The translations under genes and the position numbers were made by a program. 64,000 nt of DNA from Mucilaginibacter ginsenosidivorans. Lineage in GTDB: Bacteria > Bacteroidota > Bacteroidia > Sphingobacteriales > Sphingobacteriaceae. The stretch's first letter is position 1, and each line of letters starts with the position of its first letter. The stretch covers positions 1,240,001 to 1,304,000 of the forward strand of contig NZ_CP042436.1 in the NCBI RefSeq assembly GCF_007971025.1, in the 5' to 3' direction. A model generated the notes under the pieces. It saw only the letters and a program-made list of their open reading frames with translations, did not search any database and was not told where the DNA came from. Below are positions 32,775 to 63,988 of this stretch, piece after piece.

Positions 32775-32808
32775 TGATCGTAGTCAGCAACAGATATGAC
32801 TGATGTCA
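32775..32808. promoter_or_regulatory. Tandem low-oxygen boxes, divergent ppsA / small helical gene
   Basis: TGATCGTAGTCA (32775-32786) and TGACTGATGTCA (32797-32808), centres exactly 22 bp apart. The nearer box is 58.5 bp from the ppsA ATG on one side and 63.5 bp from the 32866 ATG on the other, so the pair can serve both. Confidence 0.8.
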
Positions 32809-32865
32809 CAATTAATTGTGCATACAGTCATTAGGGATGAGCGTTATACCCGGTAATCTTGTAAC

Positions 32866-33246
32866 ATGGAAAAGCTAAACATTAAACACATCGACAATTT
32901 GCATAATGATGCAATAAGAGGCCTCGACTTTTACTGGCAGGAATTAACCATCCTAAGAAAACGCCTTGAGGAGATAGCAGCAGATAACACCAGCCACGAG
33001 GTTGCAGAACAGGTTGAACATTTCCAGAATCAGTTCACCATCCATAACGAACAGATAGACGAATTACGGCATGCTTTTCATCAAAACTTTAAAGAAATGG
33101 AGGTGCAGCTTGTTGAAACAGCGGGCTTTGCCGATGAAAGCACATTTGCGACAAATGAAGAGCTTTATGAACGTTATATAACTGAAGAGAGATTATTTAA
33201 CGAGTTGCGGCATGACTTTAACCGTTTTGCGGCTAAATGGATGTAA
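32866..33246 (+). CDS. Small helical protein of unknown function, family A
   Basis: 126 aa, no signal or membrane segment, almost all predicted helix with long charged heptads (coiled coil). I recognise no named family. It resembles the 144-aa protein at 60005: both share F-Y-x2-E-x3-L-R-x2-L-D/E-D/E near the start, a central heptad region and a C-terminal helix rich in E, L, F and K. Both sit behind tandem low-oxygen boxes. It is followed after 27 bp by the beta-CASP nuclease gene and probably co-transcribed with it. It may bind a stress partner or ribosomes; that is speculation. Confidence 0.8.
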   Translation: MEKLNIKHIDNLHNDAIRGLDFYWQELTILRKRLEEIAADNTSHEVAEQVEHFQNQFTIHNEQIDELRHAFHQNFKEMEVQLVETAGFADESTFATNEELYERYITEERLFNELRHDFNRFAAKWM

Positions 33247-33273
33247 CTATTTGGAATATTAAATTGACCTGAT

Positions 33274-34683
33274 ATGCATCCCGGATCAACTCCATTTGAC
33301 GATAAGGGCGTTTACCTGCAGTCGCTTGGTGCGGCCGAAACGGTGACGGGCTCGAAGCACTTGCTCCGAACCCCCGGATTTAACCTTTTGGTTGATTGCG
33401 GGCTGTTCCAGGGAATTAAGTACCTGCGCGAGAAAAATTGGGAGCCCTTGCCGGTCGATGTGGCGTCAATTGATGCAATGATCCTTACCCATGCGCACCT
33501 CGATCATTGCGGTTACATCCCCCTGCTTATCAAAAATGGATATAAGGGCAAGATATTTATGAGCAAGCCAACGCGCGATCTGACCGAGTTGATATTGAGA
33601 GATAGCGCAAAGCTGCAGGAAGAAGACGCCTGGAAAGCAAACAAGCACCGGTATACCAGGCATAGCCCGGCAAAACCGTTGTATGATACCCTTGATGTAG
33701 AAGCCGCCTTGCCGCATTTTGTCATAATAGGGATGGATGAGGCTTGTAAACTGAGTGATAATATATGGTTCAAGTTTTATTCGGCAGGGCATATACAGGG
33801 AGCTTGTACCGTTGAGGTCAACTGCTATGGAAAAACCATCATTTTCTCGGGCGATATTGGCCGGTACCATTCCGAATTGCTGCATCCGCCGAGCCATCCT
33901 GCCACTGCCGATTTTGTGATCATGGAATCGACCTATGGCGACCGCCTGCACGAAAAAGGTGACGTAGCCGATGAACTGGCACTGGTAATTAATAATACGA
34001 TTACAGCCGGTGGAAATATACTCATACCGTGTTTTGCAGTCGGTCGCGCGCAGGAGGTTATCCATCTTTTGTACAGGCTGAAAGCGAAGCGGGCCATACC
34101 GCCGATTGTACCGGTTTATCTTGACAGCCCGATGGCTGCCTCGGCCGGTAAAAGCCTGCTGAAATACCCGGAGTGGCTTACCGTTAGCCAAAAGGAATGC
34201 GCTCAAATGTTCAACGGCATTACCATTAACCAGGATTACGATGGTACCGAAAAGATTATCAGGCAAAAGGGAAGTAAGATAATACTGGCAGCCAGCGGGA
34301 TGCTGACAGGCGGCCGGGTGCTGGAGTATTTAAAACATTACGTTACTGATTCAAAAAATACAATTTTGATCATGGGCTTCCAGGCTGGTGGTACACGTGG
34401 CAGGGCATTGTTAAACGGAGCGTATGAGTTAAAGATACATGGCCAATATTATCCGGTAAGGGCAAATGTAAAGGAGATCGGCGGCTTATCGGCCCATGCC
34501 GACCAGCACGAATTGCTTACCTGGCTGAAAGAATTTGCTCCGGAGCCAAAGCGCGTTTACCTCGTTCACGGCGAACCTTCAGCGATGGACGCTTTAAGGG
34601 TGAAGATCAAGGATGAATTGAATATTGAGCCAGTGATTCCCAAAGAAGATCAAAGGCAGCTTCTGTTTAGTGTAAAGGGTTAG
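33274..34683 (+). CDS. Beta-CASP metallo-beta-lactamase RNase-like protein
   Basis: 469 aa. The metal site H73-A-H75-L-D77-H78 (HAHLDHCGY) is followed by GHIQGA and a GDIGR strand. The inserted beta-CASP domain (STYGDR, DSPMAASAG) and the C-terminal RMMBL domain (SAHADQHELLTWL, VHGEPSAMDAL) are present. This is the YSH1-like class of RNA processing nucleases. A cluster of the same protein with ppsA, Hsp20 and universal stress genes is known from low-oxygen regulons, where it probably degrades or trims RNA. Confidence 0.93.
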   Translation: MHPGSTPFDDKGVYLQSLGAAETVTGSKHLLRTPGFNLLVDCGLFQGIKYLREKNWEPLPVDVASIDAMILTHAHLDHCGYIPLLIKNGYKGKIFMSKPTRDLTELILRDSAKLQEEDAWKANKHRYTRHSPAKPLYDTLDVEAALPHFVIIGMDEACKLSDNIWFKFYSAGHIQGACTVEVNCYGKTIIFSGDIGRYHSELLHPPSHPATADFVIMESTYGDRLHEKGDVADELALVINNTITAGGNILIPCFAVGRAQEVIHLLYRLKAKRAIPPIVPVYLDSPMAASAGKSLLKYPEWLTVSQKECAQMFNGITINQDYDGTEKIIRQKGSKIILAASGMLTGGRVLEYLKHYVTDSKNTILIMGFQAGGTRGRALLNGAYELKIHGQYYPVRANVKEIGGLSAHADQHELLTWLKEFAPEPKRVYLVHGEPSAMDALRVKIKDELNIEPVIPKEDQRQLLFSVKG

Positions 34684-34733: not shown

Positions 34734-34767
34734 TGCTTTATATCAAATACTTAAGTGACGCCCGTCA
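34734..34767. promoter_or_regulatory. Tandem low-oxygen boxes upstream of the universal stress pair
   Basis: The perfect box TGACGCCCGTCA is at 34756-34767, centred 53.5 bp before the ATG at 34815. A weaker second box TGCTTTATATCA is at 34734-34745, centre 22 bp upstream. Confidence 0.75.
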
Positions 34768-34814
34768 TTCATCATCTTGCTGTGAAATAGAATATTTGTT
34801 CAGCAAAACTTATT

Positions 34815-35672
34815 ATGATGAAAAATATTCTTGTCCTTACCGATTTTTCCGAAAACGCCGCATCAGCCGCGGAAGCAGGCTTGCAGCTTGCCGGAAAGTT
34901 ACATACAGACCTACTGCTGTTTAATACTTACATCGATTATAAAACCATCACATCGTACGCCGGAGGCGGGTGGGATATAGACGGATTTTCCGAAAGGCAG
35001 CAGCACAGTAGGATCGGTCTTCAAACCTTAACTGAAGGCTTGGAGTCTTTAAGCTATCAGCTAAGTCCGGAGGATCGCAAACCCGCTATCAATACCGAAT
35101 CTGACGATAGCGACCTCGGGTTGGATGTAGCCGATATTATTCGTGAAAAAGATGTTGAGATGGTTGTAATGGGTGCACGGTCGGGTACAGAAAGCGACCT
35201 GATGTTTGGCGCCGACACCAATGCAGTGATCGACTATTCAACTCGTCCGGTTTTAGTTACCCCATCGGGAACTAAATTAAAAGATATCCATAAAATAGTT
35301 TTTGCCACCAATTTTGAAAAAGCCGACCTGGAAGCTATTCGCTTTTTAACCAAATTGGGGAGCTTGTTCCATTATAAACTGGAAATTATCCATGTATCTG
35401 ATCCCGAAAAAAGGAGTGCTGAAGACGAGGAAGCTGAATTTGCAGTTGGCCTCGCTAAAATAAAATATACCGGCCTGCAATACCACAAGATCAATGGTAA
35501 AGACGTTGTAAACAGGCTAAACCGTTTTGTAACAGAAATACCGGGCACCATGCTGGCCATGGTACATGTTCAAAATTCGTTCCTGGCGCGCCTGTTCCGG
35601 CATAGTACTGTAAAAAAAACCCTGACAGATCAAAAAATTCCCCTACTTGTTTTTCCATCGAAGATGAAATAA
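34815..35672 (+). CDS. Universal stress protein, double domain
   Basis: 285 aa with two UspA domains in tandem (about 1-155 and 160-285), each starting with an ILVLTDFSE-like or KIVFATNFE strand. The ATP-loop of the first domain reads GARSGTESDLMFGADT, in which the spacing and one glycine of the usual G-x2-G-x9-G pattern are altered, so nucleotide binding is uncertain. First of a two-gene unit under a strong low-oxygen box. Confidence 0.93.
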   Translation: MMKNILVLTDFSENAASAAEAGLQLAGKLHTDLLLFNTYIDYKTITSYAGGGWDIDGFSERQQHSRIGLQTLTEGLESLSYQLSPEDRKPAINTESDDSDLGLDVADIIREKDVEMVVMGARSGTESDLMFGADTNAVIDYSTRPVLVTPSGTKLKDIHKIVFATNFEKADLEAIRFLTKLGSLFHYKLEIIHVSDPEKRSAEDEEAEFAVGLAKIKYTGLQYHKINGKDVVNRLNRFVTEIPGTMLAMVHVQNSFLARLFRHSTVKKTLTDQKIPLLVFPSKMK

Positions 35673-39410: not shown

Positions 39411-39444
39411 TGACGGTGGTCAATGATTGGGGTGATTGTTATCA
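39411..39444. promoter_or_regulatory. Tandem low-oxygen boxes upstream of hsp20
   Basis: TGACGGTGGTCA (39411-39422) and TGATTGTTATCA (39433-39444). Both are perfect matches to TGAY-N4-RTCA with centres exactly 22 bp apart; the nearer is 64.5 bp from the hsp20 ATG. Confidence 0.85.
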
Positions 39445-40185: not shown

Positions 40186-40237
40186 AAGATGGTAATAAAT
40201 CTATTACAAACATCCCTGTTATGCAAGTTATCCTAAA

Positions 40238-40271
40238 TGACACGGGTCACGTAACTTACTGACTGCGGTCA
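40238..40271. promoter_or_regulatory. Tandem low-oxygen boxes upstream of the LOG gene
   Basis: TGACACGGGTCA (40238-40249) and TGACTGCGGTCA (40260-40271). Perfect matches, centres 22 bp apart; the nearer is 58.5 bp from the 40185 ATG. Confidence 0.85.
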
Positions 40272-40418: not shown

Positions 40419-40430
40419 TGACCTGTGTCA
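40419..40430. promoter_or_regulatory. Low-oxygen box upstream of the sensor kinase
   Basis: TGACCTGTGTCA, a perfect match, centred 76.5 bp before the kinase ATG. No second box at 22 bp. Its centre is 66 bp (three times 22) from the box at 40485. The spacer 40186-40500 holds this, the LOG pair and the 40485 box, and nothing else I can recognise. Confidence 0.75.
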
Positions 40431-40484
40431 TTTTTTTAAATAATTTAAAGCATTCTTCATAACCTGATGCATTTTAGATATTTG

Positions 40485-40496
40485 TGATAAATATCA
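40485..40496. promoter_or_regulatory. Promoter-proximal box abutting the kinase start codon
   Basis: TGATAAATATCA, a perfect 12-bp palindrome ending 4 bp before the ATG at 40501. A regulator bound here would lie over the transcription start or the ribosome-binding region, so repression is more likely than activation. It suggests negative autoregulation of the sensor pair. Confidence 0.7.
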
Positions 40497-40500
40497 TTTT

Positions 40501-41685
40501 ATGGAGAGCGCCGCTTTATTAAAAGCCATTATTGAGAACGCCATTGACGGCATCATCACCATTGATGAACGTGGGCATATCGAATCCATAAATCCCGCTG
40601 CGTGTGCCCTTTTTCAGTATACTCCCGGCGAGGTTATCGGTAAAAATATCTCCGTGCTGATGCCTTCGCCTGATCGTGAAAATCACGACGGATATCTTGC
40701 AAGATATCAACGAACGGGCGATGCCCATATTATCGGAATAGGGCGCGAGGTAAGGGGACTGAAAAAAGATGGCTCCGTTTTCCCTTTCAGGTTAGGGGTA
40801 AGTCAGGTTCAATATTCAGGGCGAATAATTTACAATGGGTTTATTCATGATCTGACGCGCGAAAAAGATGCTGAAGAAAAATTGAGAGGTTATGCGGCTA
40901 AACTGGAGGAGTTAGTCGAAGAGCGTACCAGTTCATTAAAAGAAACTGTACTGGCACTACAGGCGGCCAAAGAGGAGGTGAGCTTATCGCTTGAAAAAGA
41001 AAAGGAGCTAAGCCAGCTAAAAAGCCGGTTTGTGTCGATGGCGTCGCATGAATTCAGGACGCCCTTAAGTGCAATACAGCTTTCCGCCGTATTGATAGAG
41101 AAATATTCTGCACAAAAGGATAACGAAAACATAGCCAAACATATAGCAAAAATAAAGAATGCAGTTCGCAACCTGACTTCAATATTAAATGACTTTCTTT
41201 CGCTCGAGAAGCTGGAAGCAGGGAAAGTGGAGCCCGTTTATGCTGAATTTGATATTGTAAAATTTGCTGAAGATATCATCGAGGAAATGCAGATGGTGGC
41301 GAAGCAAAACCAGCTGATTGTTTATGAACATACCGGCACTGAAAGTCTCGCAAAGCTGGACCAGGCCCTGCTGAAGAATTGCATTATCAACCTGATAGGC
41401 AATGCCATTAAATATTCGGGCGAAAATACTTTTATTGAATTTAATACAGAAATAGCTGATAAGCAGTTATTTGTGACCGTAAAAGATAATGGTATAGGTA
41501 TTCCGGAAAACGACCAGAAGCACCTCTTCGAAGCCTTCTTCCGTGCGCATAATACCGGCAACATACCCGGAACGGGCCTTGGACTGAATATCGTTACACG
41601 ATATACCAACCTGATGAATGGAAAAATAAAATTTCAGAGTAAAGTAAATAAAGGCACATCATTCACTATCTCTTTTCCGCAATAA
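40501..41685 (+). CDS. FixL-like haem-PAS oxygen-sensing histidine kinase
   Basis: 394 aa, no membrane segment. Residues 1-125 form a PAS domain that matches rhizobial FixL: the stretch PDRENHDGYLARYQ and GDAHIIGIGREVRG aligns with Bradyrhizobium FixL. His62 would be the haem ligand (His200 there), Arg68 matches Arg206, His76 matches His214 and Arg82 matches Arg220, the residue that reports oxygen; all spacings are identical. Coiled coil 125-175 leads to the phospho-acceptor His183 (ASHEFRTP), the N box with Asn301 (NLIGNAIKY), DNGIGI and GTGLGL, all intact. It should autophosphorylate when oxygen leaves the haem and pass phosphate to the next gene's protein, whose ATG is 2 bp away. Confidence 0.9.
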   Translation: MESAALLKAIIENAIDGIITIDERGHIESINPAACALFQYTPGEVIGKNISVLMPSPDRENHDGYLARYQRTGDAHIIGIGREVRGLKKDGSVFPFRLGVSQVQYSGRIIYNGFIHDLTREKDAEEKLRGYAAKLEELVEERTSSLKETVLALQAAKEEVSLSLEKEKELSQLKSRFVSMASHEFRTPLSAIQLSAVLIEKYSAQKDNENIAKHIAKIKNAVRNLTSILNDFLSLEKLEAGKVEPVYAEFDIVKFAEDIIEEMQMVAKQNQLIVYEHTGTESLAKLDQALLKNCIINLIGNAIKYSGENTFIEFNTEIADKQLFVTVKDNGIGIPENDQKHLFEAFFRAHNTGNIPGTGLGLNIVTRYTNLMNGKIKFQSKVNKGTSFTISFPQ

Positions 41686-41687: not shown

Positions 41688-42737
41688 ATGAAAACGATAC
41701 TGATCATCGAAGACAACACAGACATCCGCGAAAACACCGCCGAAATATTGGAGCTCGCAGGATACAAAGTACTGCAGGGCATTAACGGTAAAACAGGCGT
41801 CGACCTTGCCTATCAGCATAAGCCTGATCTGATATTATGCGATATCATGATGCCCGAACTGGACGGTTACGGAGTTTTATATATGCTCAGTAAAAATGCC
41901 GAGGTTGCATCAATACCATTTATATTCCTGACAGCCAAAGCTGAGCGGATAGATTTCAGGAAAGGGATGGAAATGGGCGCCGACGATTATCTTACCAAGC
42001 CTTTTGATGATATTGAACTTTTGAATGCAATTGAAAGCAGGCTGGAAAAAAAACGCAAGCAGGAAGAATTTTATAGCAAATCGTTGCAAAGCCTGGAGAA
42101 ACTATCGGCGGGAAACGGGCATGGGATGGCCGAACTAAAAGCGATGATAGCCGGGCGGAAAATACGCCAGATAAAGAAGAAGCAGATATTATACTATGAA
42201 GGCGACCAGCCCCAGGGTATTTACCTGGTGATTGAAGGGGCCATAAGAACATTTAAACTAGCCGAGGATGGCAGGGAACTAATGATGGGTTTATATAAAC
42301 CTGATGATTACCTTGGTGTGCACGCATTGTTGCTGGACGAGCCCTTTACAGAGACAGCCGAAGCCGTTGATGACGCAGCTGTATGCCTTTTGCCCAAGGA
42401 TGCGATAATTAACCTGGTAAACCGGTATCCTGATATTACGCTGCAATTCATCAAAATACTGGCGAATAACATACGCGAAAAGGAGGACCAACTGCTTGAA
42501 CTGGCTTATAATTCGGTACGGAAAAGACTGGCGCAGGTGCTGGTGAGACTAAGCAAACAGTTTACCGACCCTTCTCAATTTAAGATATCAAGGGACGAAC
42601 TGGCATCAATGGCGGGTATGGCCACCGAAACGGTTAGCCGTACGCTGAGTGACTTTAAAGATGAAAAATTGATAGAAAAAAAGGGGAGTCACATACAGAT
42701 ACTAAACCTTGAGAAGCTCGCCAAAATGAAAAACTGA
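41688..42737 (+). CDS. Response regulator fused to a CRP/FNR-type transcription factor
   Basis: 349 aa. Residues 1-120 are a receiver domain: phospho-acceptor Asp52 (LCDIMMPELDG), switch Thr82 and Lys104 (YLTKPF). Residues about 155-260 are a cyclic-nucleotide-type beta-barrel (ILYYEGDQPQGIYLVIEG) without the Cys cluster of FNR. Residues about 272-349 are a winged helix whose recognition helix reads ATETVSRTLSDF: Glu314, Ser317 and Arg318 occupy the positions of E209, S212 and R213 of E. coli FNR, which read TGA half-sites. In rhizobia FixJ and FixK are separate proteins; here both jobs are in one. Probable master regulator of the RTGAY-N4-RTCAY boxes. Confidence 0.92.
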   Translation: MKTILIIEDNTDIRENTAEILELAGYKVLQGINGKTGVDLAYQHKPDLILCDIMMPELDGYGVLYMLSKNAEVASIPFIFLTAKAERIDFRKGMEMGADDYLTKPFDDIELLNAIESRLEKKRKQEEFYSKSLQSLEKLSAGNGHGMAELKAMIAGRKIRQIKKKQILYYEGDQPQGIYLVIEGAIRTFKLAEDGRELMMGLYKPDDYLGVHALLLDEPFTETAEAVDDAAVCLLPKDAIINLVNRYPDITLQFIKILANNIREKEDQLLELAYNSVRKRLAQVLVRLSKQFTDPSQFKISRDELASMAGMATETVSRTLSDFKDEKLIEKKGSHIQILNLEKLAKMKN

Positions 42738-42768
42738 CGAATATCACTTTTCTTATTGACCGTTCTCA
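42735..42768. promoter_or_regulatory. Tandem low-oxygen boxes upstream of ldhA
   Basis: TGACGAATATCA (42735-42746, overlapping the regulator's stop codon) and TGACCGTTCTCA (42757-42768), centres 22 bp apart. The nearer one is the weaker and lies 58.5 bp before the ldhA ATG. Confidence 0.75.
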
Positions 42769-42820
42769 TACGGCAGCGATAACGACAGAGCTAATTTTGT
42801 TCAAATAAATTCTGTCGAAA

Positions 42821-43870
42821 ATGAAGGTAGTAGCCTATAGTATAAAGCCGTTTGAAAAGGAGTTTCTTGCGAGAGCCAATCAGAAGAAACACGATATAAC
42901 GCTTATATCGAACCCCTTGGGCCCCGAGACTGCCTCCTTTGCGGCGGGTAAAGATGCTGTCCTGGTTTTTACAAATGACGATGTATCAGCGGGGGTAATA
43001 GATAAACTTGCTGATTTTGGTGTAAAATATATTGCAACAAGGTCTTCCGGCACCGATCATATTGATAAGGGCGCTGCCGAAAAAAGAGGCATCAGGCTGG
43101 CTAACGTCCCGGCATACTCACCCGAGGCGATTGCCGAACATGCGGTTGCGCTGGCACTTGCGCTTAACCGTAAACTGATCAAAGCCGATGAACAAAGCCA
43201 CAATTTTGACTTCCGCCTGGACAACCTGATCGGCTTTAATTTCCACGGGAAAACAGTTGGGATAATTGGGCTTGGAAAGACCGGCCTGGCCGCCGCAGCT
43301 ATTTTCAACGGGTTTGGCTGCAGGGTGCTCGGGCATGATATATTGCCCCCGAAAGATGCCGAAAATATTGAATTGACCGACCTTAATAAACTATTTTCTG
43401 AATCGGATATTATCTCGATCCATGTACCGCTTAACGACCAGACCAAACACCTCGTCGACAAGGCTGCAATAGCGTTGATGAAGGACGGTGTAATGATCGT
43501 CAACACTTCAAGGGGTGCCCTGATCCAGACAACTGATGTATTGAACGCACTTGACAACGGCAAAATAGGTTACCTGGGATTGGATGTGTACGAATTTGAA
43601 AAGGGACTCTTTTTCACCGACCATGAAGATGATAAACAGAAGGATGCATTGCTCAAAAGGTTAATGGATCATCCAAATGTGCTGATCACGCCGCACCAGG
43701 GCTTTTTGACCAGGGAGGCACTGCAGGAGATCGCAAATCAGACCATCATTAACCTGGATCTGTGGCAGCAGGAGAAATGTGTGGGTGATGCCTGTATCGG
43801 TAATAAAAAATGCAATGAAAAAAAAGCGGATGCGCCTGTAAGTATGGACCATATTAATCTTTTGCCATGA
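42821..43870 (+). CDS. ldhA: D-lactate dehydrogenase (with Cys-rich tail)
   Basis: 349-aa D-2-hydroxyacid dehydrogenase. NAD-binding GIIGLGKTG is at 148-156. Catalytic Arg231 (TSRGAL), Glu260 (VYEFEKG) and His292 (TPHQGF) have the same mutual spacing as Arg235, Glu264 and His296 of lactobacillar D-LDH. It reduces pyruvate to D-lactate and restores NAD. The last 30 residues (C320, C325, C331: CVGDACIGNKKCNEKK) exceed the usual C-terminus and may bind metal. It overlaps hemN by 4 bp and shares its boxes. Confidence 0.93.
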   Translation: MKVVAYSIKPFEKEFLARANQKKHDITLISNPLGPETASFAAGKDAVLVFTNDDVSAGVIDKLADFGVKYIATRSSGTDHIDKGAAEKRGIRLANVPAYSPEAIAEHAVALALALNRKLIKADEQSHNFDFRLDNLIGFNFHGKTVGIIGLGKTGLAAAAIFNGFGCRVLGHDILPPKDAENIELTDLNKLFSESDIISIHVPLNDQTKHLVDKAAIALMKDGVMIVNTSRGALIQTTDVLNALDNGKIGYLGLDVYEFEKGLFFTDHEDDKQKDALLKRLMDHPNVLITPHQGFLTREALQEIANQTIINLDLWQQEKCVGDACIGNKKCNEKKADAPVSMDHINLLP

Positions 43871-45237
43871 ATCACCTGCCAAAACACCTGATAAATAAAT
43901 ACAACGTGGCGGCGCCGCGGTATACCAGTTATCCCACAGTGCCATATTGGAGTAAAGAGCCCTTTGATCAAAAACAATGGGCAGGGGCTGTAAAGGGGGC
44001 CTTTGATGCCACCAACGGCGAAGATGGTATAAGTTTATATCTTCACCTGCCGTTTTGCGAAAGCCTTTGCACCTATTGCGGCTGCAATACCAGGATAACC
44101 AGAAATCACGGGGTCGAAGAGCCTTATATCAAAGCATTGCTGAAGGAATGGGATATATATCGTCAAATATTCGGCGGTAAGCCGGTGCTTCGCGAAATAC
44201 ACCTGGGCGGCGGCACACCCACATTTTTCAGCCCCGAGAATCTTAAATTATTGATCAACGGTATATTAAAAGATTCCGTTGTCCACCCGCAAGCCGATTT
44301 TGGTTTCGAAGGGCATCCGGCTAATACAACTTTCGAACATTTAAAAACATTGTATGATCTCGGGTTTCGCCGGGTTAGTCTTGGGATACAGGATTTTGAT
44401 CCCCGCGTGCAGTTCATCATTAACCGCATCCAAACCTTTGAACAGGTTAGGGATGTAACCGAACAGGCGAGGCAGATAGGATACACCTCGGTAAATTACG
44501 ATCTGATATATGGTTTGCCCTTGCAAACACAGGAAAGCCTGGTAGATACCATTGAAAAGGTAAGTTTACTCATGCCCGATCGCATTGCGTTTTACAGCTA
44601 TGCGCATGTACCCTGGGTAAAACCCGGACAACGGCGTTTTACCGAACAGCATCTGCCATCGCCGGAAGAGAAAAGGGCATTGTATGCCCTCGGCCATCGC
44701 ATGCTTGCCGCGCTTGGTTATCATGACATTGGCATGGACCATTTCGCCCTGCCGACTGACAGTCTTTATAAAGCTGAAAGGTCCAAACATCTGCACCGTA
44801 ATTTTATGGGATATACGCACCAATATACCAGGCTGATGGTTGGGCTGGGCGTATCGTCCATCAGCGATACCTGGGATGCTTACGCCCAAAATGTCAAGAA
44901 GGTTGAAGATTATATCGCTATGATCGGCAATAACGAGTTACCGGTCGTAAAAGGACATTTTTTGACTGAAGAGGACATGGTCATTCGCAAACATATCCTC
45001 GATATCATGTGTAAAGGCGAAACCTATTGGAATTTTCACGAAGAGCCTTGTTACGCTTTATTCGAAGGGCTGGAACGTATGCAGGAGCTGGCCGATGACG
45101 GTCTTGTTCAACTTAGCTCCTATAGCCTTACGGTTACGCCCATCGGTAAAAGATTTTTGCGGAATATCTGTATGGCTTTGGACGCCAGGCTTTGGGCCGA
45201 TCAACCCACTACGCAGTTATTCAGCATGGCCGGATAA
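43867..45237 (+). CDS. hemN: Oxygen-independent coproporphyrinogen III oxidase
   Basis: 456-aa radical-SAM enzyme making protoporphyrinogen IX without O2. The SAM-cluster motif is Cys64-x3-Cys68-x2-Cys71-x-Cys73 (CESLCTYCGC), the CxxxCxxCxC pattern of true HemN. Starts MNHLPKHLINKYNVAAPRYTSYPT, as in the family. Overlaps the ldhA stop (ATGA), so translation is coupled. It supplies haem for the cbb3 oxidase of the same island at low oxygen. Confidence 0.95.
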   Translation: MNHLPKHLINKYNVAAPRYTSYPTVPYWSKEPFDQKQWAGAVKGAFDATNGEDGISLYLHLPFCESLCTYCGCNTRITRNHGVEEPYIKALLKEWDIYRQIFGGKPVLREIHLGGGTPTFFSPENLKLLINGILKDSVVHPQADFGFEGHPANTTFEHLKTLYDLGFRRVSLGIQDFDPRVQFIINRIQTFEQVRDVTEQARQIGYTSVNYDLIYGLPLQTQESLVDTIEKVSLLMPDRIAFYSYAHVPWVKPGQRRFTEQHLPSPEEKRALYALGHRMLAALGYHDIGMDHFALPTDSLYKAERSKHLHRNFMGYTHQYTRLMVGLGVSSISDTWDAYAQNVKKVEDYIAMIGNNELPVVKGHFLTEEDMVIRKHILDIMCKGETYWNFHEEPCYALFEGLERMQELADDGLVQLSSYSLTVTPIGKRFLRNICMALDARLWADQPTTQLFSMAG

Positions 45238-47214: not shown

Positions 47215-47568
47215 TTATAATATGATCACAACAACAGACATAATAACCTGGATTAAAATGCTTATCGCAGACATCAACAAAACTGCGCGGATGCTTGCAC
47301 CACCCATATAGGCGATGATAGTTGAAAAAAAGCAAGTCATGGTAATTAAAAGTACGGGCAGCGCCGGGGCATCATAATAATATACCAGGAACACCGGTAG
47401 CGGCAGGAAAAATATGCCCTGTACCACCAGTGCTAAAAAGAACCACATGGTCTTTCTTTCCTGCTGGCTGTCTGCAAAGACTGTAAATTTCTGCCATAAA
47501 GAGATGTTCGTGTCGGTGGAGTGTGAATGAGCCCAATTTGCGGGCATGCTTGTTTTTAAAGTAGCCAT
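47215..47568 (-). CDS. Membrane protein, 117 aa, three helices
   Basis: A cytoplasmic N-terminal 40 residues are followed by three hydrophobic helices (about 42-63, 70-90, 95-117). The layout resembles small cytochrome-oxidase accessory subunits, but no family motif is visible. It lies downstream of safE on the minus strand, yet has its own tandem boxes, so it is a separate unit of the low-oxygen regulon. Unknown function. Confidence 0.75.
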   Translation of the reverse strand: MATLKTSMPANWAHSHSTDTNISLWQKFTVFADSQQERKTMWFFLALVVQGIFFLPLPVFLVYYYDAPALPVLLITMTCFFSTIIAYMGGASIRAVLLMSAISILIQVIMSVVVIIL

Positions 47569-47617
47569 AACTGTTAATCTTTAATTCAAAGATCGCAAAG
47601 AGGAAACTACAACAGGA

Positions 47618-47651
47618 TGACGACGGTCATTTCAAAAAGTGACAGTACTCA
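47618..47651. promoter_or_regulatory. Tandem low-oxygen boxes upstream of the 117-aa membrane protein
   Basis: TGACGACGGTCA (47618-47629, perfect) and TGACAGTACTCA (47640-47651, one arm weak). Centres are 22 bp apart; the perfect one is 55.5 bp before the ATG. Both lie between this gene and the end of safE. Confidence 0.8.
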
Positions 47652-47658: not shown

Positions 47659-48345
47659 CTACTGACACAAATTTTGAGCGGCCCTGATCACCGGACTCAG
47701 GTATGGAATATCCAGCGAGAGACCGCGCAGGATAAACCACGCGCCAAGCAATACCATAAAATAAGGCACCACCAGGTTCAATTTTCGCCTTACCCCCAGG
47801 TTAATAAAACCTGACCCAACCGTGGCAAGGAACATGAGCGGGAGTGTGCCCAGCCCAAACCAGAACATATACTGCATAGCGCCGCCGGCCGATGAAGTGT
47901 TAATAGCGCCGGCCAAAGCAAGATAAACAAATCCGCAAGGCAGTAAACCATTTAGCATACCGACGAAGATATGCCCCCAGCGATGATTAATTGCGTAAAC
48001 CACCAGCCGGTTAATGGCTAAAAAAAACCTGTTCCCTCTCTGGCTGTTCGTGAATGACAGTTTGAACAATCGGGAAGAAGCAGCTATAAGTATTAAAATA
48101 CCGCTTGCAATTGTTACACCGCGCTGCAGGCCAAGCAGCCAGAGCTGTTTGCCTATGAGGCCAATAAGCAACCCCAACAACGAATAGCTGATAATGCGGC
48201 CGAACTGGTAAACAAGTTTATCCCATACAAAAAGCCACCGGCGTTTATCTCCGGTTGGTATCGCAAACGCGAGGGGCCCGCACATGCCGATACAATGGAT
48301 ACTGCCAAACAGCCCTATATAAAAAGCTATTTGGTAGGTGCTCAT
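47659..48345 (-). CDS. SafE/TauE-type membrane protein of the cbb3 operon
   Basis: 228-aa protein with about six membrane helices. The first carries GSIHCIGMCGP and a later one GLLPCGFVY, the pattern of UreH-like or copper-delivery family members found after ccoGH in Bacteroidota. It may move copper or help mature CcoN. The start overlaps the ccoH stop by 4 bp (ATGA), so the two are translationally coupled. Last gene of the operon. Confidence 0.85.
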   Translation of the reverse strand: MSTYQIAFYIGLFGSIHCIGMCGPLAFAIPTGDKRRWLFVWDKLVYQFGRIISYSLLGLLIGLIGKQLWLLGLQRGVTIASGILILIAASSRLFKLSFTNSQRGNRFFLAINRLVVYAINHRWGHIFVGMLNGLLPCGFVYLALAGAINTSSAGGAMQYMFWFGLGTLPLMFLATVGSGFINLGVRRKLNLVVPYFMVLLGAWFILRGLSLDIPYLSPVIRAAQNLCQ

Positions 48346-48779
48346 GGCAGGTCTATTTCTTTTTTGTAGATATATTTTTTGTTGTTGGCCTGCCAGTCGA
48401 CAGTCAGGCTCCAGCGTCCGCTGCGCAGGCCGTCGCGGGGGATAACAATATGATCGTCACCATCGCTGTTAAAGTTGATAACCTTATCAAGGGTGGCATC
48501 GGCCGGCCTTTCGAACCGGACGCTTCCTTTTACAGCCGACGTAAACATGAATGCAAGACTGTTTTCTGAGATTTTAATAACCGGCTGTGCCTTGTCGGTA
48601 ACAACCTGTTTCTCCTGGTTGTAAACGGAGTCGAAAGCAAGCCCCTTCTCATAGTATTGCCGGTCAAAATCGTTGGGCGACTGGCGGAACATTTGCACGC
48701 CCAGCACCACTATAAAAGTTATGAAAGCACCCATGCCCAGCACAAGTCCCTTTCCCCAGTTTAGCTTAATCTTCTTCAT
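48342..48779 (-). CDS. ccoH: FixH/CcoH-like cbb3 assembly protein
   Basis: 145 aa with one N-terminal membrane helix and a periplasmic domain of the FixH type (FDRQYYEKGLAFDSVYNQE, then a beta-rich part LRSGRWSLTVDWQ). It assists assembly of the cbb3 oxidase. It overlaps the end of ccoG by 14 bp and the start of the safE-like gene by 4 bp, so the three form one message. Confidence 0.88.
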   Translation of the reverse strand: MKKIKLNWGKGLVLGMGAFITFIVVLGVQMFRQSPNDFDRQYYEKGLAFDSVYNQEKQVVTDKAQPVIKISENSLAFMFTSAVKGSVRFERPADATLDKVINFNSDGDDHIVIPRDGLRSGRWSLTVDWQANNKKYIYKKEIDLP

Positions 48780-50157
48780 CGTCGTATGGTCCTATGAAAG
48801 TTGTGCTTATGGAATTCAATACCTTACCATGGTCCACCACATTCAATTTAATGTTTGTTTTGGCTGCGTGTATTTGCTTGACCGGCAGCATCAGGAAAAA
48901 GACAGCTTTTGTCGAACTTTCCTTACCGAGCGTACCAGGCGCCTGTATGTACTTTACTTTTACCGAAGGGTCGGCAGGTACCAATTGAACGTCCTGCAAT
49001 TTGTCGGTTTTATTAATGATATCAGCGTTGTAAATATTACTGATATAATGCCCGGGCTGTTCCTGGTAAAGCATCCCGCCCGTGCGCAGAACAGTTACGT
49101 CGATGTCCTTGCGCTGGTAGATAAAATAAGCCAGCACCCCAAACAGCACAGCTATGATGACACTATACGCTTTCATGCGACCGGTGAAAGTAGGTTTCTT
49201 ATTTTCCCTGATCATTTCTTCAGAGTAGAAGCCGATCAGGTTCATATCGCGGTGTATCTTTTCCATTACCTGGTTACAGGCGTCGATACACATGGTACAA
49301 TTTACACATTCAAGCTGTGCTCCCTTCCTGATGTCGATGCCCGTGGGGCACACATCAACACACAAGCCGCAGTCCACGCAATCGCCTTTCGGAGTTGGAT
49401 CTTTGCGCGACAGTTTGCCACGGGGCTCTCCACGCGTGTAATTGTAAGCCACCAATAACGTGTGCTTATCTGTAAGCACTCCCTGCAAACGGCCGTAAGG
49501 GCAAAGAACAGTACAAACCAGTTCGCGCACACGGCTATAAACCAGGTAGAAAGCTATTGTGAACACCCATATACTGATAAAGCCAATTACGTGCTGTGTC
49601 ACCGGCTCCGTCATGATCTTTAACAGGTTTTCACTGCCGATAAGATACGCCAGGAATGTATTGGCGATAAGGAATGAAAGAACCACGAAAATGAAATGCT
49701 TGGATGTCTTTTTGATGATCTTTTCCCGGGTCGCTGGTCCCTCGTCAAGCTTTCTTCTTTTTTTGGCGTCCCCCTCTATCCATATCTCGATCTTCCGGAA
49801 AACCATCTCCATAAAAATCGTTTGCGGACATATCCAACCGCAAAAAACCCGGCCAAAAGCCATGGTGAAGAAAACGATACACACCACGAAGGCCAGCATA
49901 GCGAGCACGAAGAGAAAGAAGTCCTGCGGCCAGAACGTCTGGCCGAGCAGGACAAAATGCCTTTCCATTACATTGAGCAGTAATAACGGGTGCCCGTTTA
50001 TCCGCAAAAATGGCCCGGCAAAAAACAGGATGAGATACACATAGCTCAGCCAGTTGCGGTATTGGTAAAATTTACCTTTCCGTATCACCGGGTACATCCA
50101 TCTGCGCTTACCCTTACCGGTGGTTTGTGGCTGTTCTGAAATATCTGTATCTAACAT
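48766..50157 (-). CDS. ccoG: cbb3 oxidase accessory protein CcoG (FixG)
   Basis: 463-aa membrane protein with the polyferredoxin motifs CVDCGLCVDVCPTG and CVNCTMCIDACNQ (two 4Fe-4S clusters), the NapH-like CGWICPQT, and a C-terminal FixG domain. About five membrane helices. It reduces copper for delivery to CcoN in studied bacteria. It lies 23 bp downstream of ccoP in the cco operon. Confidence 0.95.
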   Translation of the reverse strand: MLDTDISEQPQTTGKGKRRWMYPVIRKGKFYQYRNWLSYVYLILFFAGPFLRINGHPLLLLNVMERHFVLLGQTFWPQDFFLFVLAMLAFVVCIVFFTMAFGRVFCGWICPQTIFMEMVFRKIEIWIEGDAKKRRKLDEGPATREKIIKKTSKHFIFVVLSFLIANTFLAYLIGSENLLKIMTEPVTQHVIGFISIWVFTIAFYLVYSRVRELVCTVLCPYGRLQGVLTDKHTLLVAYNYTRGEPRGKLSRKDPTPKGDCVDCGLCVDVCPTGIDIRKGAQLECVNCTMCIDACNQVMEKIHRDMNLIGFYSEEMIRENKKPTFTGRMKAYSVIIAVLFGVLAYFIYQRKDIDVTVLRTGGMLYQEQPGHYISNIYNADIINKTDKLQDVQLVPADPSVKVKYIQAPGTLGKESSTKAVFFLMLPVKQIHAAKTNIKLNVVDHGKVLNSISTTFIGPYDDEED

Positions 50158-50180
50158 CTGTTGTTATTTATTCACTTGTG

Positions 50181-51107
50181 TTATTTAATCAGTGCTGCCG
50201 TTTTTGGTGCTGGGGTAGCCGGTTTTGCTGCTCCGTCATCAACTATTTTATCTCCCTGCGGCTCTTTCGGATTGGCAGGGTTACTGCCATGTATCGATTT
50301 TACATAGTTGGCAACATCAGAAATTTGCTTGGGCGACAGTTGTGTTTCCCAGGTTGGCATGCCTTTGCTGGCAACGCCATATTTAATTGTCTTAAATATT
50401 TCGTTTATCTTATTTCCATGGAGCCAGTAATCATCGGTCAGGTTTGGACCTACATTACCCTGGCCATGATCGCCATGGCATGCTATGCAACGGCTTTTAA
50501 AGATATCCTGACCCGAACTTAACACGGCCACGTCGGTTGTAAGTTTGACGGTATTTTCATCAACCATATTCCCTACTTTGGCCAGGTAAGCCGCCTTTTC
50601 TTTAGCAGCAACAGCCATTTCATTTTTATATTCGTCGTACTGTAACGGCGCAGCATCGAATACGTGATAAATAAGCAGGTAACCTATTGCGAAGGCTATT
50701 GTTACGTAGAACAGGTACATAAACCAAGCAGGCGTCGGGTTGTCGAGTTCCTGTATACCATCGTAATCGTGCTCTATCAGCAGCGATTTTTCTTCCGACA
50801 TAGGCTTCAGCGATAACAACCTGTTTAACCTGTCGGCGCGCGCGGCCTTCCTGGCTTCTTTAAGCGCTGCTTTGTCGGCTTTTGCGTCAACTGCTGCTTC
50901 GGGACCAAGCAATAAACGGGCGACCAGTTTGAATGCTTTTAACACCGTAAGCATGGCTACAATAAGCACAACTAATGCAATCATAATAGCGCCATAGCCT
51001 ATATAATTCATCGTTTCGCCTGATAAAAGACTATGATCATCGGCCGCAAATGCCGGCTGAATACTTAGTATGAGGAGTGATAAAAATATGAAGCGGATAG
51101 TTTTCAT
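50181..51107 (-). CDS. ccoP: cbb3 oxidase subunit CcoP, one-haem form
   Basis: 308 aa: signal peptide (ending AFAA), two membrane helices, then a cytochrome c domain with a single CIACHG motif near residue 207 and the distal Met in GMPTWE. Proteobacterial CcoP has two CxxCH motifs, so this is the one-haem version usual in Bacteroidota. It carries electrons to CcoN. Overlaps the ccoQ stop by 4 bp. Confidence 0.93.
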   Translation of the reverse strand: MKTIRFIFLSLLILSIQPAFAADDHSLLSGETMNYIGYGAIMIALVVLIVAMLTVLKAFKLVARLLLGPEAAVDAKADKAALKEARKAARADRLNRLLSLKPMSEEKSLLIEHDYDGIQELDNPTPAWFMYLFYVTIAFAIGYLLIYHVFDAAPLQYDEYKNEMAVAAKEKAAYLAKVGNMVDENTVKLTTDVAVLSSGQDIFKSRCIACHGDHGQGNVGPNLTDDYWLHGNKINEIFKTIKYGVASKGMPTWETQLSPKQISDVANYVKSIHGSNPANPKEPQGDKIVDDGAAKPATPAPKTAALIK

Positions 51108-51295
51108 GACTTTAAAGGATTAGGGGTTTCTTCCGTACAATCATTTAAGGGTATATCGCTCATGTAATCAACATGCTGTTTGCGCAGGCGCAATAACAGT
51201 ACGGTAACCACGATGAAGAATACAAGGAATATGAACATGGAGAACAGCAGGTAAACCTGGTTACCGTCGATATGCTCTGTAAATTGTCTAAACAT
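51104..51295 (-). CDS. ccoQ: CcoQ-like small subunit, 63 aa
   Basis: One membrane helix at about 12-35 (VYLLFSMFIFLVFFIVVTVLLL region) followed by a charged tail RLRKQHVDYMSDIPLND. Position (between ccoNO and ccoP, 4 bp after ccoN) identifies it. It stabilises the oxidase complex in other species. Confidence 0.85.
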   Translation of the reverse strand: MFRQFTEHIDGNQVYLLFSMFIFLVFFIVVTVLLLRLRKQHVDYMSDIPLNDCTEETPNPLKS

Positions 51296-51299
51296 CTTC

Positions 51300-53426
51300 T
51301 TAATTATTTGCAGTTTTATTTGCTTTAATATCGGTTCCCAGGCGTTGCAGGTAAGCGATAATGGCTACTATTTCTTTGTTGCTCTTAACCTTGATATGGT
51401 CCTTAGCCAAGTTATCGGCAATGCCTTTAGCCTGCTTGTCCAGGTCGTTGTTTGCTATCTTGTCGTAACCGGTCGGGTATGGAACGCCCAATGATTGCAT
51501 GGCCCTTATTTTGGCCCCCGTTGTATTGGTGTCCAGCTTTTGTTTTATCAGCCAGCTATATTCGGGCATGATACTCCCCGGCGACATCAGCCTGGGGTCC
51601 ATCAGGTGATTAAAATGCCACGAGTCGCCATACTTGCCGCCTTCGCGCTGCAGGTCGGGGCCGGTTCGTTTCGATCCCCACAGGAATGGGTGGTCGTACA
51701 CGAATTCGCCCGCTTTGCTGTATTCGCCATAACGTTCCGTCTCCGACCTGAACGGCCTTATGGTTTGCGAGTGGCAGTTGACGCACCCCTCGCGGATATA
51801 GATGTCGCGGCCCTGTAACTCAAGTGGTGTATAAGGCTTGACGCTTGCAATAGTTGGGATATTAGAAGATATGGTCAGCGTTGGCATAAGTTCTACAAAT
51901 GTTCCGATAAGGATGACGATCAGCGATGCAACCAGGAAAAGGATAGGCTTGCGTTCGAGCCTGCGGTGCCAGCGTTCGTTACTTGCCTCTGGCCTTAATT
52001 TTTCAAGCGGCATTGCTTCGGCGGCTTCATCGGCAACCAGTTTACCGCGAACAGCAGTTTTATAAAGATTGACGGCCATGATAATTACTCCCGTCAGGTA
52101 CATGGTACCACCTATTGAGCGCATTACGTGCATAGGGATGATACGCATAGTAGTTTCCAGGAAATTCGGGTATTTCAAAATACCTTCCGGTGTAAACTCC
52201 TTCCACATTAAACCTTGCGTAAAGCCCGACCAGTACATCGGGATCGCATAGAACAGGATACCCAGCGTGCCGATCCAGAAGTGGAACGAAGCCATTTTTT
52301 TTGAGTAAAGTTCCGTTTTATAAATGCGAGGGATAAGCCAGTAAAGAATGGCGAAAGTAAGGAAACCGTTCCAGCCTAAAGCGCCCACGTGAACGTGAGC
52401 AATGATCCAGTCGGTAAAGTGACCGATAGCGTTCACTTGTTTTAGCGAAAGCATAGGCCCTTCGAACGTCGCCATACCATAAGCAGTTAAGCCAACTACC
52501 ATGAACTTGAGGATCACATCATCGCGAACTTTGTCCCAGGCGCCGCGCAGCGTAAGCAAACCATTGATCATACCGCCCCAGCTTGGTGCGATAAGCATGA
52601 TAGAAAACACCACACCCAGTGATTGCGCCCAGCCGGGCAGGGTGCTGTAAAGCAGGTGGTGCGGGCCCGCCCATATGTAAATAAATATCAGCGCCCAAAA
52701 GTGCAGGATACTTAATTTATAAGAATATATAGGACGGTTGGCCATTTTAGGCAGGAAGTAATACATCATGCCCAGGTATGGGGTAGTCAGGAAAAATGCA
52801 ACAGCGTTGTGCCCGTACCACCACTGCACCAGCGCGTCCTGCACCCCGGCAAAAACCATATAACTTTTAGTGAAACTTACCGGTATCTCGAGCGAGTTAA
52901 CGATGTGTAGAACGGCAATAGTAACAAACGTGGCGATATAAAACCATATAGCAACGTAAATATGCCTTTCGCGGCGTTTGATGATGGTGCCGAACATATT
53001 GATACCAAAAACCACCCATATAATGGTTATCAGTATATCTATCGGCCATTCCAGCTCTGCATATTCATGCGAGGTAGTGATACCCAGCGGAAGCGTAATA
53101 ACCGCCGATACGATGATCAGCTGCCATCCCCAGAAGTGGATCTTACTGAGTACGTCACTGAACATGCGGGCCTTCATCAGCCGCTGGAGAGAATAATAAA
53201 CGCCCATAAAAATGGCATTGCCCACAAAGGCGAATATCACCGCATTGGTGTGCAGCGGCCTTACACGCCCGAACGAGGTGTACTGGTTATGCATATTCAT
53301 CTCAGGCTGGTACAATTGTATTGCTATGATCAGGCCCACCAGCATGCCGATGATACCCCAGATAACTGTCGCAATACCAAAATTTCGAACGATCTTATTG
53401 TCGTAGTAAAATTTTTCCGGTTGCAT
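51300..53426 (-). CDS. ccoNO: Fused cbb3 oxidase subunits I and II (CcoN-CcoO)
   Basis: 708 aa. Residues 1 to about 480 are the 12-helix haem-copper catalytic subunit (RPLHTNAVIFAF, PDALVQWWYGHNAVAFF-type helices with the His ligands, HVHVGALGWNG). Residues about 520-708 are a mono-haem cytochrome c subunit (CVNCHS near 547, Met ligand in SIMPEYSWL). The fusion of CcoN and CcoO in one chain is characteristic of Bacteroidota. It reduces O2 to water with very high affinity while pumping protons, supporting respiration at trace oxygen. Confidence 0.95.
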   Translation of the reverse strand: MQPEKFYYDNKIVRNFGIATVIWGIIGMLVGLIIAIQLYQPEMNMHNQYTSFGRVRPLHTNAVIFAFVGNAIFMGVYYSLQRLMKARMFSDVLSKIHFWGWQLIIVSAVITLPLGITTSHEYAELEWPIDILITIIWVVFGINMFGTIIKRRERHIYVAIWFYIATFVTIAVLHIVNSLEIPVSFTKSYMVFAGVQDALVQWWYGHNAVAFFLTTPYLGMMYYFLPKMANRPIYSYKLSILHFWALIFIYIWAGPHHLLYSTLPGWAQSLGVVFSIMLIAPSWGGMINGLLTLRGAWDKVRDDVILKFMVVGLTAYGMATFEGPMLSLKQVNAIGHFTDWIIAHVHVGALGWNGFLTFAILYWLIPRIYKTELYSKKMASFHFWIGTLGILFYAIPMYWSGFTQGLMWKEFTPEGILKYPNFLETTMRIIPMHVMRSIGGTMYLTGVIIMAVNLYKTAVRGKLVADEAAEAMPLEKLRPEASNERWHRRLERKPILFLVASLIVILIGTFVELMPTLTISSNIPTIASVKPYTPLELQGRDIYIREGCVNCHSQTIRPFRSETERYGEYSKAGEFVYDHPFLWGSKRTGPDLQREGGKYGDSWHFNHLMDPRLMSPGSIMPEYSWLIKQKLDTNTTGAKIRAMQSLGVPYPTGYDKIANNDLDKQAKGIADNLAKDHIKVKSNKEIVAIIAYLQRLGTDIKANKTANN

Positions 53427-53491
53427 ATATTTATTGATTAATGTGATTTTTATACCGCCGTAAAATTATTCCGGCCGGTTCAATGACAGAA

Positions 53492-53525
53492 TGATATTGG
53501 TTGTGCCGATTTGTGATCGTAATCA
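53492..53525. promoter_or_regulatory. Low-oxygen boxes upstream of ccoNO (internal promoter)
   Basis: TGATCGTAATCA (53514-53525), a perfect match overlapping the ccoS stop codon, and TGATATTGGTTG (53492-53503), a weak match, centres 22 bp apart. They allow the oxidase genes to be transcribed independently of ccoI-ccoS. Confidence 0.75.
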
Positions 53526-56074: not shown

Positions 56075-56124
56075 TTAAGCCCGTTGTCAAAAGCAAAAAT
56101 GAGTGCTATTTGCCTGTAAAAGAA

Positions 56125-56159
56125 TGATCTTAATTAACGCTGAAAAGTGACCTTCGTCA
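56125..56159. promoter_or_regulatory. Low-oxygen boxes between ccoI and the Nramp-like gene
   Basis: TGACCTTCGTCA (56148-56159), perfect, and TGATCTTAATTA (56125-56136), weak, centres 23 bp apart. The perfect box is 65.5 bp from the Nramp ATG; the weak one is 56.5 bp from the ccoI ATG, so the pair may serve both directions. Confidence 0.75.
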
Positions 56160-59850: not shown

Positions 59851-59900
59851 GACTTTGCTTTTTGTTATTCAAAGTTGCTTAATAGACCCGGGCGAAATAA

Positions 59901-59935
59901 TGACCATCGTCATATAATATTCTGACAGTGAGTCA
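59901..59935. promoter_or_regulatory. Tandem low-oxygen boxes upstream of the L,D-transpeptidase gene
   Basis: TGACCATCGTCA (59901-59912), perfect, centred 56.5 bp before the ATG, and TGACAGTGAGTCA (59923-59935), a match with a five-base spacer, centre about 22.5 bp further. Confidence 0.75.
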
Positions 59936-60439: not shown

Positions 60440-60491
60440 ATGTTTGTGTTTGATATGAGATAAAGGTCGGTCGGGCCACGCAGGTGATACA

Positions 60492-60525
60492 TGACGGGGG
60501 TCACACAAAAAATTGATCTTCGTCA
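60492..60525. promoter_or_regulatory. Tandem low-oxygen boxes upstream of the 144-aa helical gene
   Basis: TGACGGGGGTCA (60492-60503) and TGATCTTCGTCA (60514-60525), both perfect, centres 22 bp apart. The nearer is 58.5 bp before the 60439 ATG. The far one overlaps the mgtA stop codon. Confidence 0.85.
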
Positions 60526-63069: not shown

Positions 63070-63090
63070 AGCCGAAATTCAATTCGTTAT

Positions 63091-63915
63091 TTATAATGGG
63101 AAAATTATTACCGGTACCGGAATATGCTCGGGCAGCGTATTATTGATGCACTGCCCGAACAATTCTTCAAAATGGAATCGGTGGTTTACCAATGCCAGCA
63201 GATCGGCGTGTAAACTATTGATCATCACATCAACGGCAATCTCTAAATTTCGCTCTTTTATATTGTTAAAATAGGTCTTATCGTAAAATATTTTATTGGT
63301 GATCTCGCTTTCGAATAATGTTGCAGCATAGTCGTCGCTCAACGGCGGCAAACCTTTTGCCGAGAAATGCTCAATTACAAGATTGGCGCCATATTCCCTG
63401 GCAAGTTCGGTTATAAATTTCAATATCGCGGTGCGGCAATAGCGCATATCCAAAGCATAAGTAATATTTTCAAACCCGCGTTTTTTGTAATTGCAAGGCA
63501 CAAGCAACAATGGGCAGGCTACACGGTTCAAAACCGCCTGTACATTTATATTGGACAATGAGTTGTGTGTAGCATGCGTTTCTATTCCCTTTACCATCAG
63601 CCAAATGTTCTTCCCGGTCACCAGTTCGCAGATCTCCTTTTCTGTAAACCCGCTTACGTTCATGTCATTCACTACAGGTCGGAAAGCATTGTCTCGGGTA
63701 ATGTTGTATAAGTGCTTAACCAGGCTGAATAAACCGGTGCTTTCCGCCGACAGCTGCTCGCCTGCTGTTACCGCCTGTTTGTTTTCGACCATGACATCAT
63801 CGCATAAATTCAGGATAAGGATATCAGCTTTCAATTTTTGAGCAATATCCAATGCGAACTCTGCAGCATTTTCAGCTTCGGGCGAACTGTCGTTGAATAG
63901 AAGTATGGTTCTCAT
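63091..63915 (-). CDS. Universal stress protein, divergent
   Basis: 274 aa. Begins MRTILLFNDSSPEAENAAEFALDIA, a UspA-like first strand and helix, with a second domain starting near residue 150 (FENITYALDMRYC). No recognisable nucleotide loop, so it probably does not bind ATP. It lies just upstream of mgtA in the same unit and is preceded by one perfect box at 63977. Confidence 0.88.
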   Translation of the reverse strand: MRTILLFNDSSPEAENAAEFALDIAQKLKADILILNLCDDVMVENKQAVTAGEQLSAESTGLFSLVKHLYNITRDNAFRPVVNDMNVSGFTEKEICELVTGKNIWLMVKGIETHATHNSLSNINVQAVLNRVACPLLLVPCNYKKRGFENITYALDMRYCRTAILKFITELAREYGANLVIEHFSAKGLPPLSDDYAATLFESEITNKIFYDKTYFNNIKERNLEIAVDVMINSLHADLLALVNHRFHFEELFGQCINNTLPEHIPVPVIIFPL

Positions 63916-63976
63916 GCGTTGCTAAATGGCCAATGACTATTCGGCCCAAGTTCGGCAACAAATCAAAAAAACGGGA

Positions 63977-63988
63977 TGACCGCGGTCA
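63977..63988. promoter_or_regulatory. Low-oxygen box upstream of the Usp-mgtA unit
   Basis: TGACCGCGGTCA, perfect and fully palindromic, centred 67.5 bp before the 63915 ATG. A partner 22 bp further would lie beyond the window end. Confidence 0.75.

Follow-up and report, generated by a model that had tools for sequence, protein, structure and literature searches.

We identified in the genome of Mucilaginibacter ginsenosidivorans what is probably a conserved low-oxygen regulon of Bacteroidota, in which a FixL-type kinase would act through a receiver-Crp protein on pairs of palindromic boxes 22 bp apart. Computed directly from the sequences were the boxes, their 22-bp phasing, their distance to the -7 element of the promoter, the domain make-up of the two proteins, and the association between protein and box pairs across genomes.

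Box pairs in the window and its genome

The TGAY-N4-RTCA palindrome box (TGAYNNNNRTCA) occurs 22 times in the 64-kb window, the whole stretch of DNA analysed, against 3.15 copies expected, a number reached by none of 100 shuffles; RTGAYNNNNRTCAY occurs 15 times against 0.71 expected. An earlier note on this DNA had counted 15 full boxes after 32.7 kb. Our count agrees closely, with 19 of the 22 in that region, or 16 when those at 40419 and 40485 (5' of the kinase gene) and at 60228 (within an ORF) are set aside. Eleven of the 22 full boxes are matched at 22 bp by a second box that departs from the motif at one position or none, every other distance up to 80 bp giving at most two; 22 bp is the sole preferred box spacing in the window.

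Nine of the eleven pairs that had been listed hold. Seven are spaced by 22 bp and show no more than one mismatch, comprising the perfect-perfect pairs 32775/32797, 39411/39433, 40238/40260 and 60492/60514 and the one-mismatch pairs 34734/34756, 42735/42757 and 47618/47640; an eighth, 53492/53514, has two mismatches, and the ninth, 56125/56148, has one mismatch at a distance of 23 bp. The pairs 37719/37741 and 59901/59923 were dropped, the partner box carrying three mismatches in each. Missing from that list, owing to the edge, was a pair that crosses the window end, formed by perfect boxes at 63977 and at genome position 1303999.

Throughout the 5.35-Mb genome, RTGAYNNNNRTCAY occurs in 118 copies against 34 of the reversed pattern; for the 22-bp pair, two mismatches being tolerated, the figures are 40 and 6. 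Eight of the 19 genome pairs with at most one mismatch fall inside 31 kb (C1:1272775-1304010, the window and across its right edge). The claim that such regularity exceeds chance is thus borne out both by shuffles and reversed patterns, which are far lower, and by enrichment of the pair in the whole-genome scan.

Promoters and genes of the island

The island gene block probably serves low-oxygen life. Family searches recognized a fused CcoNO, a CcoP with a FixP_N domain, FixH, a FixI-like P-type ATPase, a radical-SAM protein, a D-2-hydroxyacid dehydrogenase, a universal stress protein, PEP synthase, a Mg-type ATPase, an Nramp transporter and an L,D-transpeptidase, while HemN, CcoG, Hsp20 and further stress proteins were named by eye from translations.

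From left to right, the perfect pair at 32775..32808 (22 bp) probably drives the PEP synthase gene on the minus strand (likely ATG 32722), with a -7-like element TAGCTTTG at 32744..32751 (minus strand) whose TTTG stands 28 nt past the inner box, and perhaps also the plus-strand gene at 32866. A pair with one mismatch at 34734..34767 (22 bp) precedes a universal stress protein gene at 34815, with AATATTTG at 34791-34798. Perfect pairs at 39411..39444 and 40238..40271 precede two minus-strand genes, one Hsp20-like (39352; named by eye) with GACCTTTA at the +28 place, the other LOG-like (40185) with GATGTTTG at 40207-40214. Upstream of the kinase gene stand two perfect boxes, 40419 and 40485 (40419..40496), 66 bp or 3 x 22 apart, the second ending 4 nt before the ATG; autoregulation of or feedback on the kinase gene through these boxes is suspected. 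The one-mismatch pair at 42735..42768 faces a D-2-hydroxyacid (lactate-type) dehydrogenase gene at 42821, with TAATTTTG at 42792-42799; this gene and a radical-SAM gene, hemN-like by eye, occupy 42821..45237 on the plus strand.

Another one-mismatch pair, at 47618..47651, lies before the gene of a 117-aa protein (47568, minus strand), with GATCTTTG at 47587-47594. The cbb3 oxidase genes (47659..53426, minus strand) encode the fused CcoNO, CcoP, a CcoG-like protein (by eye), FixH and a DsbD_2-type membrane protein; upstream of ccoNO (53426) is the pair at 53492..53525, whose inner box has two mismatches, with TAATTTTA at 53461-53468. The 23-bp pair (56125..56159) lies between divergent genes for the FixI-like P-type ATPase (56074, minus strand), whose promoter has CATTTTTG at 56094-56101, and an Nramp-like transporter (56219, plus strand). 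A single perfect box at 59901..59912, with no valid 22-bp partner, precedes the L,D-transpeptidase gene (59850, minus strand; CAACTTTG at 59870-59877), and the perfect pair at 60492..60525 precedes a small minus-strand gene (ATG 60439; GACCTTTA at 60461-60468). At the right edge, the inner box of the pair that crosses the window end (63977..63988, outer box at genome 1303999) precedes a USP-like gene (63915, minus strand; by eye).

The end of the inner box lies 48-66 nt from the likely start codon in 13 of 15 window promoters, close to the 52-72 reported earlier; outside this count are the kinase gene (71 nt from box 40419) and the box at 37719, which has no clear gene. At +28 from the inner box, 7 of the 15 carry TTTG, 3 carry TTTA and 5 neither.

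Two island proteins gave no Pfam or NCBIfam match. One is a 602-aa protein (45341-47149, minus strand), for which a similar protein was seen by eye at C1:1544004 and whose relatives account for 6 of the 230 box-pair promoters described below; the other is the 117-aa protein (47215-47568, minus strand), with relatives' promoters paired likewise in 6 of 230.

Spacing and promoter geometry in related loci

We compiled 118 loci, picked for presence of the regulator, from a first set of 40 (14 to 20 kb each) and 78 of 80 named loci, L119 and L125 being left out as overlapping. The first 40 hold 218 full boxes, 155 of them inside noncoding DNA, which makes up 13 percent of the sequence. At 22 bp they contain 11 pairs of full boxes and 24 of a full box with a one-mismatch box, against at most three and four, respectively, at other distances from 12 to 100 bp. 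These 35 pairs occupy 24 of the 40 loci, the other 16 having no pair, and 31 of the 35 are noncoding under a strict ORF rule. The 78 further loci yielded 36 and 124 pairs of the two kinds at 22 bp (next best distance 5 and 9), minor additional counts appearing at 44, 65 and 66 bp, and the pair is present in 73 of them. Across the 118 relatives' loci, 22 bp is the single strong spacing peak. A search of 31 family genomes that allowed any gap from 0 to 30, used for a first look only, gave a match in 19. Also observed, in G019 (C15:285055-285402), was a 21-bp array of TGACGT-rich palindromes that differs from the 22-bp pairs.

From the 118 loci we obtained 385 oriented pair calls, each pair being called once per strand, of which 382 lie outside the deep interior of long ORFs (a looser rule). 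An ATG was in reach for 248, and 230 promoters were left after near-copies were removed by similarity. The comparison of coding with noncoding DNA proposed in the earlier note therefore came out, in these relatives, with nearly all pairs noncoding rather than with equal frequencies. TTTG begins 28 nt past the inner box in 103 of the 230 promoters and at offset 27 in 11, every other offset up to 50 giving at most 5; the other 127 have no TTTG exactly at +28. The longer motif TAnnTTTG is found 56 times at offset 28, 6 times at 27, 3 times at 29 and at most once elsewhere. We take TAnnTTTG to be the Bacteroidota -7 element, with TTTG as its end, and inferred the transcription start from its position, which puts the centre of the inner box at about -41 and that of the outer box at about -63. 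A class II position of the inner box, at a fixed distance to the promoter core, is well supported by this alignment of sequences. The 103 aligned promoters further have an A tract 5' and a T tract 3' of the outer box.

The pairs recur upstream of predicted targets in relatives' genomes. Assigned by their best match among island proteins, the commonest downstream genes were those of the dehydrogenase (44), the kinase (29) and universal stress proteins (23, summed over three labels); 80 of the 230 promoters had genes with no island protein match, and those among them with a -7 element include BON-like proteins (by eye). Both main parts of the earlier interpretation are well supported by sequence statistics: the spacing kept in independent loci and the fixed -7 distance favour a pair of dimer sites separated by two turns, the inner being in class II position, and the same conservation, with pairs nearly all noncoding, points to a regulon. 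It is exceedingly improbable that the boxes are chance palindromes or an unregulated repeat family, for which one might cite the similar palindromes that some relatives carry in a 21-bp array or as further 21-bp pairs, given that the pairs are noncoding, keep a fixed distance to the -7 element, precede the same genes in diverged genomes and far outnumber their counterparts in shuffled sequence and reversed patterns.

The outer base of the box had been described as a purine. This was found not to be general, and a strictly-R outer base was rejected; "seldom T" fits instead. Among the 103 relatives' promoters, C, A and G all occur at the left outer position, with T at only 0.14 and 0.16 in the two boxes. 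Purines did prevail at loci whose receiver-Crp protein has an S-type (mostly ETVSR) recognition helix, where full boxes have R at the left outer position in 0.61 and Y at the right in 0.85. Outer-base use differs between S-type and I-type helices (p 0.01 and 0.002, confounded by ancestry), and covariation of helix residue with outer base is only suggestive, the I group comprising 31 promoters from 13 loci with ancestry not removed.

A haem-PAS kinase and a receiver-Crp protein

The gene at 40501..41685 (plus strand) encodes a histidine kinase with a FixL-type haem PAS, HisKA and HATPase, as judged from Pfam and from a match to FixL. Its PAS domain aligns with that of FixL (1dp6) at E 2.2e-29, with the haem His and Arg aligned, such that the sequence shows the proximal His, distal Arg, HisKA and HATPase of FixL; the NCBIfam FixL model matched with 161.4 of 850 bits, far under the cut-off. 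The product of 41688..42737 (plus strand) combines, according to Pfam, a receiver domain (residues 4-116), a cNMP-binding fold and a Crp HTH (HTH_Crp_2), and is the likely reader of the boxes. NCBIfam models scored it at 77.9 of 300 bits for FixK, 93 of 228 for Fnr and 80.3 of 266 for Crp. By eye, it has two Cys, far apart, and the Arg-Ser of the Crp phosphate cassette seems to be missing. Its closest counterpart among the matches listed (80 named loci) belongs to a Mucilaginibacter MAG, at 90 percent identity.

Alignment of the regulators from 39 of the first 40 loci (L073 has no regulator ORF) showed the receiver Asp to be invariant (39 of 39) and the recognition helix to be framed by E and R in every protein. 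A kinase lies near the regulator in 36 of the 40 loci. Of these kinases, 35 of 36 have the haem His and 25 of 36 the haem Arg, which leaves the case for oxygen sensing strongest in the window and near relatives; some relatives' kinases have a looser PAS type that may lack haem binding. This variation bears on the unlikely alternative that the same regulator and boxes answer another signal, be it carbon starvation, redox state, or a gas such as nitric oxide or carbon monoxide. Both NO and CO are ligands that haem PAS domains can take up, the haem Arg is absent in 11 of 36 relatives' kinases, and stress and envelope genes stand among the targets beside respiration; set against this, the window PAS aligns with FixL (E 2.2e-29) and keeps both the His and the Arg, and the island includes genes for cbb3 oxidase, FixH and a fermentative dehydrogenase.

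The genome carries a second FixL-like kinase and receiver-Crp pair at C1:1504080-1506313 (L018), with a regulator of 59 percent identity; beside it lie a stand-alone Crp gene and a dehydrogenase gene of reduced length. The 12-kb stretch around this second pair contains no full box.

Association of box pairs with the regulator over the class

In a phylum sample of 296 genomes, the receiver-Crp protein has matches of 39-66 percent identity, and the full-length matches, which extend over much of one class, all belong to the same class as the window. At E 1e-55 it was detected in 96 of 198 class genomes (the G372 copy being in two pieces). Pairs with at most one mismatch number 693 against 16 reversed controls in these 96 genomes, and 170 against 25 in the 102 genomes with no such match; pair counts differ between the two groups with a rank-test p of 2e-19, ancestry not corrected. 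G014, of the same genus, has 37 pairs against 0. Half-turn spacing (27 bp) shows no excess with the protein in the same 198 genomes (104 with, 132 without), which rules it out as an equally good arrangement. The association is not strict, as 6 of the 96 genomes have at most one pair and 18 of the 102 have 4 to 9. Among the matches listed, a wider search of those 18 pair-bearing genomes found receiver or Crp pieces and none that was full-length.

Such genomes could be explained if stand-alone Crp/Fnr proteins with an N-terminal cysteine cluster were the main readers, the receiver-Crp protein being only a target or minor partner, which we regard as quite unlikely. The M. ginsenosidivorans genome has nine HTH_Crp_2 matches above the cut-off, with four related stand-alone proteins at C1:988.5k, 1506.6k, 1565.1k and 2955.9k (by eye, close N-terminal cysteines number four in three of them and three in that at 1565.1k), and genomes that encode a stand-alone protein have more pairs, be the receiver-Crp protein present (p 3e-4) or absent (p 2e-5). 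The effect of the receiver-Crp protein nevertheless persists in both strata, with and without stand-alone proteins (p 8e-11 and 2e-10), and the median number of pairs is 3 in 28 genomes with the receiver-Crp protein only against 0 in 51 with neither, ancestry not corrected. The concentration of 8 of 19 own-genome pairs within 31 kb round the receiver-Crp gene, and the variation of the outer base with the helix type of that protein (again confounded by ancestry), also argue against stand-alone proteins. Taken together, these findings make the stand-alone proteins less likely as sole readers; the receiver-Crp protein is likely the main reader here, with shared use probable in places.

Proposed mechanism and comparison with known systems

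We infer the oxygen signal, the phosphotransfer, the DNA binding and the direction of control from the features above. Under the proposed low-oxygen control by the receiver-Crp protein, the haem-PAS kinase (40501-41685) would give up O2 as oxygen falls and phosphorylate the receiver of the 41688-42737 product. Since this regulator has its own Crp/Fnr-type DNA-binding half, the two steps of FixJ and FixK would be done in one chain. Active dimers would then fill two TGAY-N4-RTCA boxes with centres 22 bp apart, on the same helix face; 22 bp is about the length of one Crp footprint. The inner dimer, at about -41, would replace the -33 element and make class II contact with polymerase at the TAnnTTTG -7 element, and the outer dimer, between the A tract and the T tract, may aid binding or add a second contact. 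A more specific version, which we put forward tentatively and with some doubt, is a one-protein form of FixJ-FixK: a widespread Crp/Fnr activator, switched by phosphorylation, whose two dimers would abut on the DNA, perhaps linked through their receivers, and which would govern a low-oxygen regulon not described before and shared by many families of the class.

Control of high-affinity respiration and hypoxic survival in aerobic Bacteroidota is seemingly little known. Given the box, its spacing, the promoter rule and a candidate sensor-regulator couple, the regulon can be predicted from many genome sequences. The literature searched, which takes in a minority of the subscription journals, gave no account of FixL working with a receiver-Crp regulator in Bacteroidota, nor, in the portions of text covered, of a fused regulator reading a 22-bp double box in a regulon spread over much of the class; as evidence of absence this is weak. 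For Flavobacteriales and Saprospiraceae MAGs, the parts of PMC8510549 consulted describe CRP/FNR homologues with a MalR matrix and predicted carbon sensing. These belong to the same phylum and protein superfamily; the word "receiver" is absent from the main text of that paper, and the paired box was not found in the parts consulted.

The closest parallel is the FixL-FixJ-FixK cascade of rhizobia, which likewise has a haem-PAS kinase, a receiver protein, a Crp/Fnr-type activator, and cbb3 and fix genes as targets. It differs in that receiver and Crp/Fnr parts are fused here, the boxes are paired at 22 bp and the promoter is of the Bacteroidota type. FixJ has a LuxR-type HTH as its output, whereas the output here is a cNMP fold with HTH_Crp_2, and FixK is a stand-alone protein with no receiver. 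Also, the consensus of FnrN/FixK, given as TTGANCNNGATCAANG with outer T in the portion of PMC4999443 consulted, corresponds to a FixK/Fnr outer T (TTGA...TCAA) that is seldom met in the boxes here (0.14 and 0.16).

Fnr recognizes a TGAY-N4-RTCA core through an E and an R of the recognition helix, and acts from a class II position. These traits of Fnr, Anr and Dnr are common to the present system; unlike them, the regulator here has no N-terminal cysteine cluster (4Fe-4S), and the signal is expected to arrive via its receiver. In mycobacteria, the DosR dormancy regulon has a haem-sensor kinase, universal stress proteins, a small heat-shock protein and repeated boxes. The haem kinase, the stress targets and the repeated boxes are alike in the two systems, but DosR is of the LuxR type and reads another box. 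FixL, receiver domains, Crp/Fnr proteins and class II activation are all of known kinds and their combination is apparently new; if true, the classic cascade would here be cut short, the phosphorylated protein being itself the Crp-type activator.
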